Translations under genes and position numbers: made by a program
Assembly: GCA_913045315.1 (NCBI GenBank)
Contig: CAJWQJ010000005.1
Coordinates: 34,019-98,018, forward strand
Reading direction: 5' to 3'
DNA: 64,000 nucleotides
Source of the DNA: an uncultured Chloroflexota bacterium
GTDB taxonomy: Bacteria; Chloroflexota; Dehalococcoidia; Lucifugimonadales; UBA1127
Notes under the pieces: generated by a model
What the model saw: the letters and a program-made list of their open reading frames with translations, nothing else
What the model was told of the DNA's origin: nothing
Databases searched by the model: none
Shown: positions 40,388 through 47,726 of the stretch, piece after piece
Position numbering within the stretch: the first letter of the stretch is position 1
Layout of the letters: each line of letters begins with the position of its first letter

Positions 40388-41575
40388 ATGCCAAATGGCC
40401 CTGTAGGAGAATTAATTCCACCCAGACGAGTATTGCTCGGACCTGGTCCTAGTGATGTAAATCCAAGAGTGTTAAGAGCAATGGCAACTCCGGTACTGGG
40501 ATATCTTGATCCTGATTTTATTGAGTTAATGGATGGAGTAGCTAATATGCTCAGGGATATCTTTGGAACAGAAAATGGATTTACTTTGCCAGTTTCTGGA
40601 ACTGGTTCAGCAGGAATGGAAGCGGGATTAGCCAATCTCCTCGAGCCTGGTGATGTTGCTGTAATAGGAGAAAACGGTTTCTTTGGTGCTCGTCTAGTTG
40701 AAATTGCAAAAAGACAAGGGGCTACAGTAGATGTAGTAAGTGCTGATTGGGGCAAACCGATTGATCCAAATGAAATTGAAAATGCACTTAAAAGAAATGA
40801 AAAAGTAAAACTAGTAGCAGTTGTCCATGCTGAAACTTCTACTGGTGTATTGCAACCTCTTGAAGAAATAGCAGCAATTACGAAACAATACAACGCTCTA
40901 TTGCTCGTTGATGCAGTAACTTCCTTAGGTGGAACACCAGTAAATATGGATAAGATCGGTATCGATTTTTGTTACAGTGGAACACAAAAATGTTTAGGTG
41001 CTCCACCTGGACTGTCTCCAGTTGCAATAAGCGAAAAAGCCCTTGAGGTAATTGAAAATAGAACTACGACTCCTCGAACATGGTACCTCGATCTGGGATT
41101 ATTAAGAAAATATTGGGCTGGAGGAACAAGGGTATATCACCATACACCTCCAATGAGTATGATATATGCACTTCGAGAAGCACTAAGAGTCGTACTTGAA
41201 GATGGATTAGAGAATAGATACGCACGACATGAGAAAAATGCATTAGCTTTACGTGCAGGCCTTAGAAACATGGGACTCAATTTACTAGTGCCAGATGAAT
41301 ATTGCTTGTATCAACTTACTACTATTGAAATTCCCGAAGGAATCAATGATCAAACTCTTAGAACAAGTTTACGTGAAGATTATGGAATTGAAATCGGAGG
41401 GGGATTAGGACAATTTGCCGGTAAAGCATGGCGGATAGGGTTAATGGGAGAGTCATCTACTCAATCGAATGTTTTAATGGTTCTTTCTTCCTTGGAAAAA
41501 CTACTTACAAATTCAGGCTTCGAAGTAGGTTCAGGTTCAGGGGTAAAAGCTGCTACAGAAATTTTCAACACTTGA
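40388..41575 (+). CDS. Class V aminotransferase (alanine-glyoxylate/serine-pyruvate type)
   Basis: LLGPGPSDVNPRVLRAMATPVLGYLDPDF; SGTQKCLGAPPGLSPVA PLP-lysine region. Confidence 0.9.
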   Translation: MPNGPVGELIPPRRVLLGPGPSDVNPRVLRAMATPVLGYLDPDFIELMDGVANMLRDIFGTENGFTLPVSGTGSAGMEAGLANLLEPGDVAVIGENGFFGARLVEIAKRQGATVDVVSADWGKPIDPNEIENALKRNEKVKLVAVVHAETSTGVLQPLEEIAAITKQYNALLLVDAVTSLGGTPVNMDKIGIDFCYSGTQKCLGAPPGLSPVAISEKALEVIENRTTTPRTWYLDLGLLRKYWAGGTRVYHHTPPMSMIYALREALRVVLEDGLENRYARHEKNALALRAGLRNMGLNLLVPDEYCLYQLTTIEIPEGINDQTLRTSLREDYGIEIGGGLGQFAGKAWRIGLMGESSTQSNVLMVLSSLEKLLTNSGFEVGSGSGVKAATEIFNT

Positions 41576-41932
41576 TTAGGTAAATCTTTTAAAAAACTTT
41601 TTCCACCAAGAAAGATTGAGTTCATTGAATTTCGTAATACCTTCTTGTGATATAAAAACCCTATAGGCCCCAACAGGGGGTTTCTCATACATAGTGATCC
41701 ATCCACGCTCTTGAATTTCTGATAATAATTTAATTATCCTTCCTCTTTTTTGAGTTGCATATGTAGATAGTTCCATTTCGGATGGTTCAATTAATCCTGC
41801 TTCAAAAGCCAAGTCTCTTTCATCAAGGCCCTCCATATCAATATTTCTTCGAAATCCATCGGAAAAAGCATTCCCCAATGCTAGAAGTAATGCTCGAATT
41901 TGCTCATCAGTTCGTTTATCTAAATCAACCAA
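41576..41932 (-). CDS. Hypothetical protein, possible winged-helix fold
   Basis: 118 aa; KRGRIIKLLSEIQERGWITMYEKPPVGAYRVFISQEGITKFNEL. Confidence 0.6.
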   Translation of the reverse strand: MVDLDKRTDEQIRALLLALGNAFSDGFRRNIDMEGLDERDLAFEAGLIEPSEMELSTYATQKRGRIIKLLSEIQERGWITMYEKPPVGAYRVFISQEGITKFNELNLSWWKKFFKRFT

Positions 41933-41962: not shown

Positions 41963-43219
41963 TTATACAAATTTAAGGAAAACTTCATTACCCAACAATC
42001 GACCTTTTTCAGTTAAGCGAAGAATCGAATCTTCATTTAATTTATATACTTCAAGTAAATCAAGTTCTTTTAAATTTGAAATTTCATTACCATATATTTC
42101 ATCTAAATTTAAACCAAACCTTTGACGAAACTCACTATAATAAATTCCTTCGGTGAGACGAAGACCAAGAATCATTGTATCGCTCATTTGCATCTGTTTG
42201 TCATTCAATTCAAAATCTTTAATTACTCCTAAAATTTGATCTCGGAAATTAGTTAAATCATCAGCATCTGAATAATTATTATCTTCAATATTTTTTATCG
42301 AATTAATATATTTGACTGGTGAACTAACATTTTCATATCGTAACCCAGGCAAATGAGAATGTGCTCCAGCTCCAAATCCCAAATATATATTATTTTTCCA
42401 ATAACATAAATTATGAAGGCTTTGCTTGCCTTTCTTCGCCCAATTGGAAATTTCATAATTCAAATATCCTGCAGAATTCAATTTCTCACACAATAAACGA
42501 TACATATCTGCTGCAAGATCATCGTCTGGTTTTTTCCGAACACCTATCTCAACCTGATGCCTTAAAAAAGTTCCGGGTTCAAGTGTTAGGCAATATCCAG
42601 AAACATGCTCAGGATTTAAATCTATTATTTTATTAACTGTATTCTCCCAAATGTTAATTTTCTGATAAGGCAATCCATAGATAAGATCCAGATTAATGTT
42701 GTTAAGCCCTGCATTACGAATTACTTCATAAGCAGTTATTACATCCTTAGAGTTGTGTCTTCTTCCTAGTAATTTGAGAAATCTATCATCTAAACTTTGA
42801 ACACCCATACTTACACGATTAATCCCGGAATCCATTAATTCATAAATCTTATTGAAGGTAACATCATCAGGGTTTATTTCAGCGGTTATCTCGGCACTTT
42901 CATCTAGCATAAACGATTGCGAAATAGTTTTTAATAACAATGATATATCATTTGCTTTTATATATGATGGGGTTCCGCCACCAAAAAATACCGTTTTGAC
43001 CTTTGGATTTTTAACAATTTTTGACCAGACATAAATTTCTTTCTGTAAAGATTCAACATATTCATCAATCATTGATTCGATTCCTGAATATGTGTTGAAA
43101 TCACAGTAATAACATTTGCTTTTACAAAATGGAATGTGCAAATAAATGCTAAATTCTTTATCGATAGTTTCAGTATTAATTAAGTCAAAACTTGGGAATT
43201 TTTTAATCACAGACACCAC
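41963..43219 (-). CDS. hemW: HemW-like radical SAM protein
   Basis: YLHIPFCKSKCYYCDFNTY; FFGGGTPS; MGVQSLDDRFLKLLGRRH. Confidence 0.93.
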   Translation of the reverse strand: MVSVIKKFPSFDLINTETIDKEFSIYLHIPFCKSKCYYCDFNTYSGIESMIDEYVESLQKEIYVWSKIVKNPKVKTVFFGGGTPSYIKANDISLLLKTISQSFMLDESAEITAEINPDDVTFNKIYELMDSGINRVSMGVQSLDDRFLKLLGRRHNSKDVITAYEVIRNAGLNNINLDLIYGLPYQKINIWENTVNKIIDLNPEHVSGYCLTLEPGTFLRHQVEIGVRKKPDDDLAADMYRLLCEKLNSAGYLNYEISNWAKKGKQSLHNLCYWKNNIYLGFGAGAHSHLPGLRYENVSSPVKYINSIKNIEDNNYSDADDLTNFRDQILGVIKDFELNDKQMQMSDTMILGLRLTEGIYYSEFRQRFGLNLDEIYGNEISNLKELDLLEVYKLNEDSILRLTEKGRLLGNEVFLKFV

Positions 43220-43227
43220 CGTATTTC

Positions 43228-44292
43228 CTAGACATTAAAAAGAAAATTGATTATGTCTCCATCCTTAACAAGATAATCTTTCCCTTCCATGCGAAAAGTT
43301 CCATTTTTCTTTGCTTGATTCATAGTGCCTGCATCAAGAAAATCATCATATGAAATAACTTCCGCACGAATAAAGCCTCGTTCAATATCAGAATGAATTT
43401 TTCCCGCAGCTTTAGTTGAAAGTGAATTATATTCAACTGTCCAAGCTCGAACTTCATCTTCTCCTACAGTAAAAAAAGATATTAATCCCAATAAGTTAAA
43501 CGAAGCTTTGGCTACTCTGTCACTTCCAGTCTCATATATACCATATTCTTCCCTGAACATTTCTTCATCCTCACCTTCAAGCTGCGCCAATTCCATTTCA
43601 ATTTGCCCAGCTAAAGCTACAACTTCACGTTTATCTTGGGAAAAACGGTTTTTGAGATTTGTTTCAAGATCATCCATTTTTTGAGCCTGATCTTCTGAAA
43701 TATTGAAAACTAATAACATAGGTTTTGCAGTAAGTAAATTATAATTCGATACCAATAATTTCTCAGATTCAGAAAGTGCAACATCTCGAATCGGAATTTC
43801 TTGTTCCAAATAGTTTCTAATCACCTTTAAACTTTCTTCTTCCTGATTAAGTCGCAATCGTTCTTCACTTCGGGCACCTTTTAACATATCTGTTACACGT
43901 GTAGCCCGCCGATCTAATATTCCAATATCAATAGTCATCAATTCCAGATCTAAAGTGGCAACATCTGACTCGGAAGAGGAAATAGCTTCTTCATCAAAAT
44001 AGCGAACAACATGAAGTAAAGCATCTGCTCCTTGAATAGCATTGATAACTTCACCCGCAACACCAGAGCCTTGCTTGGTAATATCACCAATAGAAGGAGT
44101 ATCGACATACTTTACCTCAGCAGGAATAGTTTTACGTGGATTATAAATAGTAGTTAATTTTTCAATCCTAATATCAGGAACTTTTGCCATGCCAACTGAA
44201 AGGCCACGATTGCCTAGATTAAAAACTCTTGTAAGAGCACTAAAAATAGTGCTTTTTCCTGATTGAGCAAGTCCTATGATCAAAGTATCCAT
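43228..44292 (-). CDS. ychF: YchF/Obg-family GTPase
   Basis: IGLAQSGKSTIFSALT; VDTPSIGDITKQGSGVAGE; C-terminal TGS-like AWTV...KGFIRAEVI...GKDYLVKDGDI. Confidence 0.88.
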   Translation of the reverse strand: MDTLIIGLAQSGKSTIFSALTRVFNLGNRGLSVGMAKVPDIRIEKLTTIYNPRKTIPAEVKYVDTPSIGDITKQGSGVAGEVINAIQGADALLHVVRYFDEEAISSSESDVATLDLELMTIDIGILDRRATRVTDMLKGARSEERLRLNQEEESLKVIRNYLEQEIPIRDVALSESEKLLVSNYNLLTAKPMLLVFNISEDQAQKMDDLETNLKNRFSQDKREVVALAGQIEMELAQLEGEDEEMFREEYGIYETGSDRVAKASFNLLGLISFFTVGEDEVRAWTVEYNSLSTKAAGKIHSDIERGFIRAEVISYDDFLDAGTMNQAKKNGTFRMEGKDYLVKDGDIINFLFNV

Positions 44293-44304
44293 AATTATCT
44301 TGTC

Positions 44305-46638
44305 TCAGCGAATTGCATATAATTTACCATCAGTAGAACTAACATATAGGAATCCGTTTGCCCATGTAGGTTTTGCTTTAATTCCTGCCTCGGTTTTAAC
44401 AGTCCATTCAATCTCACCACTGGTACGGTCCAAAGAATGCACTAAACCATCATTTGTTCCAATAAAAATCTGATCACCGACTGCAATTGGTGATGCAGAT
44501 ACACCAATACCCACTTCTGTTTGCCAAAGAGTTTTATCAGCCATCAAATCATGAGCATATGCATAACCGTTACTAGTTCCAAAATATACTTTATCTTCTT
44601 GTACTGAAAGGTCTGTCAGTCCAGTATCTGATCTCGCTACTCTTGATGACCAAGAAAATCCTTTTTGTACTGGGGGTTTATCTTCAAATCCCCACAAGTA
44701 AAATTGAAGTCTCCAAAATCTAGCTTTACGTTCAAAACGATATTCTTTCATACGTGTATTGATTGCAAGTAATTTACCATTTCCTAATCCAAGAAGAACA
44801 TTGTCATCTATCAATACAGGACCACTTATATTTTTCCCATAAGTGTTGTATGTAAGTCTTGCAGTTCCTGTCTTTGTATCAATAACATATACCCAAGCTC
44901 TACTGTTACTGAAAACTACGGTATCATTATTTACTACTGGGGTATTAGTAATCCAACCGTCAGATTCAAAATGCCATAGATAATCACCATTAACGGCATC
45001 AAGCGAAAACATCGATCCATTTCCAGTTCCAAAAAATACTGCTCCTTTAAATACCAAAGGTGAAGACATGATTGGATCTTCAGAATCAAATTCCCATATT
45101 AACTCACCGTTGCTAGTATTAATTGCTAGCATTCGACCATCACGCAATCCAACATAAGTAGTTTTATCAGTTATCGTTGGGGAAGAATCAATTGGTCCTG
45201 ATGTTTCAAATTCCCATATTTTATCACCTGTATATGGATCTAATGCTAATATTTTATCAGCACTAGTAGGAATTATAAGAATTCCATCCTTTATGGAACT
45301 AGAAGCTATTATGGGTTTACCAGTATCTTTAATCCATTCAATCTCTCCTTTAACCCTTGAAGAGCTTAATGAAGCAAATTGATCAGTATCAACTGAAGAC
45401 CAGTTTTCTAGATTTCTACCATGTAATGCCCAATCACCATATTGGGATACAGCTGTTAATACGCTGGTTGAGGCTATGGGAACTAGCGGAGGAGGTTTAA
45501 AAAATTCGGAGTAAGTACCCCATGATATTAATACTATAAATCCAAAGATCAAACTCCAACGTGTAAAACGATTCAGCTTTACGCTTCGAATAATACCTTT
45601 TTCTTTTCTCTCAGCACTTTCTACAGTAGTAAATCTTTCTTTCGTAAGTGGTGACCAGCAACCTCTACATAAAGTATCCATTGGAGTATTCTGTTGACCA
45701 CAATAGACACAAACATATTCAGAGAAATATTCTGCACTAATGTCACTCTCTTCTTTTTCAGCATTAGTATTCGAGGCAGAAGGGATTACGATATCTTTCA
45801 AGGATTCGATAAAAGCATTTGTAAAATCCCTACATGAAAAGAATCTTTCAGTTGGGCGTTTATTTAAAGCTTTCAAAAATACTGAATCCACTTCCGGGGT
45901 AAATTCTTTCCTGATTTCGCTAGGTAATTTAGGAAGGCTAATGCTCTTGTAGTACACAACACTTTCACGAGTTCCCAAAAATGGTAAAACTCCAAAAAGA
46001 AGTTGATAGGCTATTGAAGCTAATGCATACACATCACTACTTTTATCCAAAGATATTCTTTTACAGTGTTCAGAGGACGAATAATAAGGGTGGGGAACAT
46101 TAAGAGATGATTGCGTTAGTTCGTTAACATTTTGCGATAGCTCATACATGTAAAATCCTTCAATTTTCACAGTCTGAAAATCCTCAGAAACAAGGATATT
46201 TGATGGTTTTAAATTCCCATGCACTATATCTATTTCATGGATTGACTCTAACGCTTCTGTAGTTTTATTAACTATAGAAATAACATTTTCGATATTCAAG
46301 GGTAATTGCTTCCCTCTAATAATTTCGTCCAAACTTTTGAAATTCATATATGGATAAACTACCCATATCGAATTCTTGTCAGAACTGTAATCTATAGGAG
46401 CAAGTATTACATTTGAATTTGATTTTTTTATCGATTCTAGAAAGTTAAAGTAGTTTGAAATTAGTTCTGCATTATCTTCATTTATAAAATAGGGCCGCAA
46501 AAACTTGATAGCAACTTCACTTAAAGTCTGTTTATCATATGCCTTGTGAACATATGCGATTGCAGTGCCACCCAATAAATCGCCTACAATATATCTTTCA
46601 GAAATGATTCGATTATTGATGTTTAATTCATCTGTCAA
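44305..46638 (-). CDS. Protein-kinase-like domain (predicted pseudokinase) + zinc ribbon + TM + PQQ beta-propeller repeats
   Basis: Kinase-like N-terminus (VAIKF, HGNLKPSNIL, KIEGFYMY); CVYCGQQNTPMDTLCRGCW; WSLIFGFIVLISWGTY; repeated LAIDP/YTGDKIWEFET...DGRMLAINTSNGELIWEF. Confidence 0.88.
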   Translation of the reverse strand: MTDELNINNRIISERYIVGDLLGGTAIAYVHKAYDKQTLSEVAIKFLRPYFINEDNAELISNYFNFLESIKKSNSNVILAPIDYSSDKNSIWVVYPYMNFKSLDEIIRGKQLPLNIENVISIVNKTTEALESIHEIDIVHGNLKPSNILVSEDFQTVKIEGFYMYELSQNVNELTQSSLNVPHPYYSSSEHCKRISLDKSSDVYALASIAYQLLFGVLPFLGTRESVVYYKSISLPKLPSEIRKEFTPEVDSVFLKALNKRPTERFFSCRDFTNAFIESLKDIVIPSASNTNAEKEESDISAEYFSEYVCVYCGQQNTPMDTLCRGCWSPLTKERFTTVESAERKEKGIIRSVKLNRFTRWSLIFGFIVLISWGTYSEFFKPPPLVPIASTSVLTAVSQYGDWALHGRNLENWSSVDTDQFASLSSSRVKGEIEWIKDTGKPIIASSSIKDGILIIPTSADKILALDPYTGDKIWEFETSGPIDSSPTITDKTTYVGLRDGRMLAINTSNGELIWEFDSEDPIMSSPLVFKGAVFFGTGNGSMFSLDAVNGDYLWHFESDGWITNTPVVNNDTVVFSNSRAWVYVIDTKTGTARLTYNTYGKNISGPVLIDDNVLLGLGNGKLLAINTRMKEYRFERKARFWRLQFYLWGFEDKPPVQKGFSWSSRVARSDTGLTDLSVQEDKVYFGTSNGYAYAHDLMADKTLWQTEVGIGVSASPIAVGDQIFIGTNDGLVHSLDRTSGEIEWTVKTEAGIKAKPTWANGFLYVSSTDGKLYAIR

Positions 46639-46660: not shown

Positions 46661-46696
46661 GATATAAGAACATATTAGAAATTATGTTCTTATATC
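46661..46696. promoter_or_regulatory. 14-bp-arm inverted repeat in divergent promoter region
   Basis: GATATAAGAACATA-TTAGAAAT-TATGTTCTTATATC between the kinase/PQQ gene and holA. Confidence 0.55.
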
Positions 46697-46721
46697 TATA
46701 ACATTGTACTATACTATAAAA

Positions 46722-47726
46722 ATGATTTATCTGTACTATGGTGAAGATTCTTTCTCCCAAATTCAAGCTATTAAAAACCTCGAGGAACAAGTTGGCATGA
46801 TGGAAATTAGAGATGCCAACATAAGTAGATACGTAGCAAGAGAAACTTCGAAAGAAGGTCTTATAGCCGCCTGTATGACCATGCCATTCCTTGCAGAAAA
46901 AAGATTGATCATTATTTTAGGCTTATGGGAATACTCCTTAAGTAAACAATCTAATAAAAAGAAACAAAGCAATAAAAAGAATGATGGATATGAGAAATCT
47001 GAATGGACCGATTTTTGGGATGTCATTGAACAAATTCCTGATACAACAGACATAGTATTTAGTGAATATAATTTTTCTCCATCACAAAAAATATTATCCA
47101 ACCTTTCAGAAAATTGGACTGTACAAGAATTCCCAAGAATGCAGGAGTATGCTTTAGTTAATTGGATTCGTAAAAAAACCATTGATCAACAAATACAAAT
47201 ACAGCCTAATGCAATATCATTACTCATTGAACTAATAGGTTCGGATTTATGGGAATTAGATAATGAACTAGAAAAATTAATTCTATATTCAAGCGGTCAA
47301 CCAATTACTACTAATCACGTTAACACATTAGTAAGTGCCTCAAAAACTGTTAATGTTTTTGAGGCAATAAATGCTCTTCTGAATGGCAATATTCGGCAAT
47401 CATTTCAATTAATAAATGCTCTTCTAAGTGGTGAGTACGAAGCAAGGAATTTTCGTTTTCTTATGGCAAGACAAACACGACAACTTATATTAACAAAAGC
47501 TCTAATCGAAAAAAAAATTTCTTCGCAAGAAATAGGAAAATCACTGAATATTTCCTCTTCATATTCAGTAAAAAAAACTATGGAAAGAGCCAATAATACG
47601 TCTTGGGACAGATTAAATCGGCTTCACAAGCAATTAATTGAGACTGACAGAGCTATTAAGACTAGCGAATTAGAGGAAAGAATTGCTCTGGAAACTTTTG
47701 TAGCAGAAATGTGTATAACAAGTTAG
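46722..47726 (+). CDS. holA: DNA polymerase III subunit delta
   Basis: MIYLYYGEDSFSQIQAIKNL; ALVNWIRKKTIDQQIQIQPNAISLLIELIGSDLWELDNELEKLILYS. Confidence 0.88.
   Translation: MIYLYYGEDSFSQIQAIKNLEEQVGMMEIRDANISRYVARETSKEGLIAACMTMPFLAEKRLIIILGLWEYSLSKQSNKKKQSNKKNDGYEKSEWTDFWDVIEQIPDTTDIVFSEYNFSPSQKILSNLSENWTVQEFPRMQEYALVNWIRKKTIDQQIQIQPNAISLLIELIGSDLWELDNELEKLILYSSGQPITTNHVNTLVSASKTVNVFEAINALLNGNIRQSFQLINALLSGEYEARNFRFLMARQTRQLILTKALIEKKISSQEIGKSLNISSSYSVKKTMERANNTSWDRLNRLHKQLIETDRAIKTSELEERIALETFVAEMCITS

Follow-up and report, generated by a model that had tools for sequence, protein, structure and literature searches.

What does a kinase domain do in a membrane receptor once the residues that make it a kinase have been replaced? 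The question is raised by a gene in a 64,000-nucleotide stretch of DNA from an uncultured Chloroflexota bacterium (the whole analysed stretch is called the window below). A preliminary description of this gene proposed a pseudokinase fused to a zinc ribbon, a transmembrane helix and a PQQ propeller, and suggested an allosteric or scaffold receptor. Our analysis leads us to the reading, at a probability of roughly 0.6, that the product is a single-pass membrane receptor whose kinase fold does not phosphorylate and instead serves as a binding or allosteric part.

Architecture of the window protein

The gene starts with TTG directly downstream of an AGGA-like motif and runs for 777 codons with zero internal stops; on re-reading the codons, the frame, strand, start and every codon cited in the preliminary description proved right. 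Its parts are as follows.

44305..46638, minus strand, coding sequence for pseudokinase, zinc ribbon, transmembrane helix and propeller, 777 amino acids (full-length homologues)
45793..46608, minus strand, kinase-fold domain, residues 11-282 (Pfam, AF2, Foldseek)
45643..45717, minus strand, zinc ribbon CxxC...CxxC, residues 308-332 (all four Cys conserved throughout the 10-row and family alignments)
45499..45561, minus strand, predicted transmembrane helix, about residues 360-380 (hydropathy)
44308..45441, minus strand, BamB/PQQ-like beta-propeller, residues 400-777 (Pfam PQQ_2, Beta-prop_ACSF4)
44650..44742, minus strand, family-specific aromatic/Pro propeller insert, residues 633-663 (family comparison)

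The four-part architecture is backed by homologues with the same plan. Membership of the first domain in the Hanks/PknB superfamily fold is indicated by a Pfam profile, by AF2 and by Foldseek: Pkinase (PF00069) matches residues 18-266 above its cut-off (E 2.6e-27), the AF2 model of residues 1-285, built with 71 generic kinases of 22-29% identity from a contig scan, reaches a pLDDT of 90.8 and a pTM of 0.89, with confidence low only for the N-terminal tail and the activation segment, and among PDB structures it resembles PknB and S. aureus Stk1 most (TM up to 0.82). The model places a helix where alphaG is expected (residues 225-231). The zinc-ribbon cysteines are C310, C313, C324 and C327, and a Lys/Arg-rich stretch precedes the predicted transmembrane helix, which by the positive-inside rule would place the N-terminus inside.

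PQQ-type propeller models match from residue 434 on (PF13360, 434-627), and the propeller resembles the non-cofactor BamB. No PqqE above the cut-off was found in the 89%-complete window genome, nor in the control genomes (0/14). The propeller insert follows the pattern F..K..W...LYVWG....PP..G..W and is present in kinase-bearing and kinase-less zinc ribbon–transmembrane–propeller proteins of the order; it is a possible membrane or partner contact.

Catalytic residues

The positions that bear on catalysis can be assigned as follows.

46504..46506, minus strand, Lys45 of VAIK, kept (codon AAG, family alignment)
46441..46443, minus strand, Phe66 at the alphaC Glu position, Glu lost (codon TTT)
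46213..46215, minus strand, Asn142 at the HRD catalytic Asp, Asp lost (codon AAT)
46198..46200, minus strand, Asn147, metal-binding Asn of the catalytic loop, kept (codon AAT)
46150..46158, minus strand, Gly161-Phe162-Tyr163 replacing Asp-Phe-Gly (codons, family alignment)

Measured against the triad of an active Ser/Thr kinase, K45 is present and both the HRD Asp and the DFG Asp are absent; these replacements (N142, G161) and the retention of the VAIK Lys had been reported before, and their residue numbering and codons hold. Loss of at least one of Lys, HRD Asp and DFG Asp defines a pseudokinase by sequence (PMC12599244), and here two of the three are lost. The DFG segment reads G161 (GGA, 46156-46158), F162 (TTT, 46153-46155) and Y163 (TAC, 46150-46152). 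Two losses extend the earlier list: the DFG Gly has become Tyr163, and Phe66 stands in for the alphaC Glu, the partner of Lys45. The column of E66 is nearly invariant in the 71 other kinases, although Glu is absent from 15 of 23 members of the protein's own family, some of which keep HRD and DFG.

Two further signs of degradation had been proposed. The glycine loop, described as weak, is rejected as evidence for a pseudokinase: T25 and A28 are found throughout the family, including members that have HRD and DFG, and thus say nothing of degradation in the window protein. In the APE region, the Pro is indeed replaced by Ser, but the Glu (E190) is kept. Also retained are His140 (CAT), Lys144, the alphaF Asp D202, the alphaI Arg R265 and the spine residues V30, A43, H140 and F162. 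From the replaced catalytic residues we infer that the protein is inactive as a kinase, and the domain is very probably catalytically dead.

Could the domain be a cryptically active or repurposed kinase, in which Lys45, Asn147 and a shifted acid, Glu160, support residual phosphotransfer or other nucleotide chemistry? CASK, titin EFG, SelO and SidJ are examples of such proteins. Lys45, Lys144 and Asn147 are retained, and E160 (GAA, 46159-46161), which may be such an acid, lies beside the lost Asp at DFG-1, where nearly all relatives carry a small residue (S/G/A/T); unusual active kinases provide precedent (PMC2639636; PMC12599244). We nevertheless regard this as improbable, given that the two acids are missing together with the alphaC Glu, that the DFG Gly is Tyr, that loss of the HRD Asp is seldom compatible with activity, and that titin's acid occupies the DFG Asp position itself, whereas E160 sits at DFG-1.

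Still less probable is an origin of the substitutions in an error of assembly or sequencing. The sequence comes from a single multi-contig assembly, and by eye the +1 frame over the motif reads K-D-F (GAT TTT); yet an error would require two compensating indels within some 15 codons, the protein needs no indels to match the family exactly in alignment length, HGN recurs in three independent assemblies from its clade, and F66 lies elsewhere.

The family across the order and class

A protein search of 60 relatives and a 10-row profile run over 250 genomes of the order and 393 of the class yielded 22 other homologues with the kinase–zinc ribbon–transmembrane–propeller plan, hence 23 with the window protein (two of them, in G084 and G017, each split across contigs); the profile also found many kinase-less zinc ribbon–transmembrane–propeller proteins in the order. 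In the alignment, Lys, HxD and DFG are all kept in 14 of the 23 and not in the other 9. The HRD Asp is lost in the window protein and in G009, G046 and G168 (all HGN), G251 (HRN), G052 (HLG) and G327 (HGS), so that a pseudokinase unique to the window protein is rejected. The DFG Asp is lost in the window protein, the only one of the 23 with Gly there, and in G327, G255 and G313, all with Asn. Replacement of the beta3 Lys by Arg is confined to G255 and G313 (L175, L176), which read VEIREP for VAIK and NAG for DFG and have Asp for Asn147.

Parsimony requires at least three catalytic losses over the family. One of them is a clean separate loss: G052 (HLG) groups with G017 (HQD/DFG) with support of 100/99. 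In G052 (L018/L154) the receptor and hemW lie in one open frame of 1243 amino acids that contains masked bases; a stop may have been missed here, rather than the two genes being fused.

In most families of the order outside the window's clade, HxD and DFG are retained. Intact members (among them G023, G042, G029 and G033) share all four domains and the neighbourhood with the window protein and, unlike it, keep HxD and DFG. Even such members are atypical and their activity is putative, since only 8 of the 23 have Glu at the alphaC position. H140, E190, D202 and R265 are present in all nine members that miss a catalytic residue, and all four are nearly invariant across the family (E190 is Gln in one intact member); it is thus the fold that the family retains, its dead members included.

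The locus and its history

In the window the receptor gene has these neighbours.

41963..43219, minus strand, hemW, radical SAM heme chaperone (TIGR00539 above cut-off)
43228..44292, minus strand, ychF, redox-regulated ATPase YchF type (TIGR00092, E 2.9e-76, below equivalog cut-off; PF06071)
46661..46696, no strand assigned, palindrome with 14-bp arms in the divergent holA/receptor intergenic region
46704..47726, plus strand, holA, DNA polymerase III delta, divergent neighbour (TIGR01128 above cut-off; synteny)

Because the gaps are 12 nt between receptor and ychF and 8 nt between ychF and hemW, the three genes are likely to share one transcript. Most families with a receptor gene share the order divergent holA, receptor, ychF and hemW, and members of the same architecture mostly sit between holA and ychF-hemW. 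The arms of the palindrome read GATATAAGAACATA...TATGTTCTTATATC; its core pattern occurs once in the genome, with 0 expected in window shuffles, and it is a candidate operator or terminator. A 118-amino-acid frame (41576-41932, minus strand) adjoins hemW; it has zero Pfam or NCBIfam matches and is conserved beside hemW also in the f5 genomes and G024, at 31-50% identity. A role in phage defence was considered and rejected, because the PADLOC hits are generic kinase matches that cover the kinase part only, and the neighbours are housekeeping genes.

A tree of ychF, hemW and holA unites the window, its sister genus, the f5 family (HGN/DFG, three genera) and G024 in one clade (91/94), and among the loci compared only this clade has the aminotransferase gene (40388-41575) as a neighbour. 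An intact catalytic loop is absent throughout the clade, and every surviving kinase in it reads HGN. Whether the substitutions are fixed in orthologues has a divided answer: HGN is fixed in the three other kinase-bearing genera of the clade, and the DFG loss belongs to the window protein alone. The kinase and propeller trees place the window protein weakly, and a grouping with f5 is not rejected by either (AU p 0.37 and 0.19, respectively). The simplest account is a single loss of the catalytic Asp in the ancestor of the clade, followed by loss of the DFG acid in the window lineage, of the domain in G024 and, in the sister genus, of the whole gene; HGN may alternatively have arisen independently in the window protein.

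Kinase-less and gene-less states occur at the same locus. G024 and G036 carry a kinase-less version at the same position, about 100 bp from holA, which leaves no room for a kinase remnant. In the sister genus the receptor gene is absent from 5/5 genomes (G001, G002, G003, G004, G005), and in four of them (G001, G003, G004, G005) holA and ychF directly adjoin at a distance of 56-118 bp; the role of the receptor is consequently not essential.

Retention or decay of the kinase domain

The mixed answer from the orthologues and the loss of kinase or gene within the window's own clade make relaxed constraint toward loss a serious rival to a retained module. The kinase domain would have become dispensable after the ancestral Asp loss, the window protein would represent a late stage before deletion, and only the zinc ribbon, transmembrane helix and propeller would still matter. 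The deletions in G024 and G036, the empty locus of the sister genus and the frequency of kinase-less forms in the order all fit such decay, as do some of the rates. On a fixed topology, the ratio of kinase to propeller terminal branches is 1.55 for the window protein, 1.86 for G052 and 1.30 for G327, whereas intact-triad members range from 0.49 to 1.48 with a median of about 0.8-0.9; the difference between triad-lost and intact members is weak (one-sided Mann-Whitney p 0.034, 7 vs 12, the G255 and G313 tips left out). Constraint on the kinase domain appears to be lowered in the window's clade, where the domain was dispensable enough for one relative to lose it.

Against decay, the active-looking G029 also stands at 1.48, and the HGN domains of f5 evolve no faster than their own propellers (ratios 0.9-1.1; omega 0.27 for the kinase vs 0.29 for the propeller, with dS near saturation). 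The window frame is open over all 777 codons, fold and spine residues are kept, and the AF2 fold is confident. G255 and G313, of another lineage, show strong purifying selection on a dead kinase domain, with a dN/dS of 0.070 vs 0.141 for their own propellers (dS 0.63 and 1.04); their kinase domains are 92% identical where the propellers are 77% identical, and no other dead kinase of the set is as strongly conserved. This family is therefore able to retain a dead kinase domain firmly. In the genomes searched, there was no close relative of the window protein for dN/dS in its genus, and the sister-genus genomes are without the gene. We consider decay unlikely, though well short of negligible, and hold that the window's kinase domain is probably kept as a working non-catalytic module.

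Discussion

The pseudokinase part of the preliminary description is borne out by the homologues, by the confidently modelled fold and by the replacement of three polar catalytic residues; the allosteric or scaffold role that it attached to the receptor is plausible. We propose the following model for such a receptor. The propeller would lie outside the membrane and bind a ligand or partner, and the signal would run via the transmembrane helix and the zinc ribbon to the pseudokinase, which may act as a dimerisation, partner-docking or allosteric module in the manner of JAK JH2 or EssB/YukC. It could act on a partner in trans, candidates being either intact kinase of the genome or the YchF ATPase, which is probably co-transcribed with the receptor. 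The genome holds three kinase domains, that of the window protein, L201 (HRD/DFG) and L202 (278 amino acids, HFD/DFG); L201 (G000:C2:57934-58683) lies in a 1297-residue frame with zinc ribbons, a kinase with intact motifs and a large AAA-type ATPase. A search of the window genome for FHA domains as candidate partners found none.

How does the window protein relate to known systems? AfsK is an active kinase. The window protein shares with AfsK-type PQQ-propeller receptor kinases an N-terminal PknB-like kinase and a C-terminal PQQ-like propeller, but it lacks the catalytic residues and scores 131.4 on the AfsK model NF053615, far below the cut-off of 1300. Proteins that combine a pseudokinase with a PQQ domain are already known: many of the actinobacterial ActPs1 pseudokinases have a C-terminal PQQ_2 propeller, with all three catalytic residues substituted and about 60% without the G-helix (O'Boyle et al. 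2025, PMC12599244). The window protein, likewise a pseudokinase with a C-terminal PQQ_2 domain, differs from ActPs1 in keeping Lys45, so that not all three residues are substituted, in its modelled alphaG-position helix and in the zinc ribbon before the transmembrane helix. ActPs2 has HRN, Arg for the beta3 Lys and a mostly deleted DFG (PMC12599244); the window protein shares the Asp-to-Asn replacement, but keeps the beta3 Lys and has GFY at DFG. Human VRK3, which is inactive and unable to bind ATP, combines HGN with GFG, and HGN is found in 4/4 JAK JH2 domains (PMC2639636). Like VRK3, the window protein pairs HGN with G-F at DFG, and like both it keeps the spine His and the loop Asn; VRK3 differs in keeping the alphaC Glu and JH2 in keeping the DFG Asp, and both are eukaryotic proteins of other architecture. 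The searched open-access literature contained neither the window lineage, its zinc ribbon and its graded one-locus series, nor YchF with Ser/Thr protein kinases, nor zinc-ribbon or propeller kinases in Chloroflexi.

Little is known of bacterial pseudokinases, whose families are mostly met in their final form. At the single orthologous position described here, putative active kinases, HxN/DFG and HGN/GFY forms, other dead kinases, kinase-less receptors and gene loss all occur, so that natural variants make it possible to follow, and to test, in which order catalysis was lost and what the loss led to. We tentatively suggest, at somewhat less than even odds, that the family sheds catalysis repeatedly between holA and ychF-hemW, becoming a pseudokinase several times independently, once with strong purifying selection, and then kinase-less. 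If so, its essential output would be non-catalytic docking through the zinc ribbon and kinase fold, and not phosphorylation. A receptor without catalysis raises the question of its output, for which the linked YchF ATPase and HemW are testable candidates, and the locus provides a natural record of an enzyme turning into a non-enzyme part.
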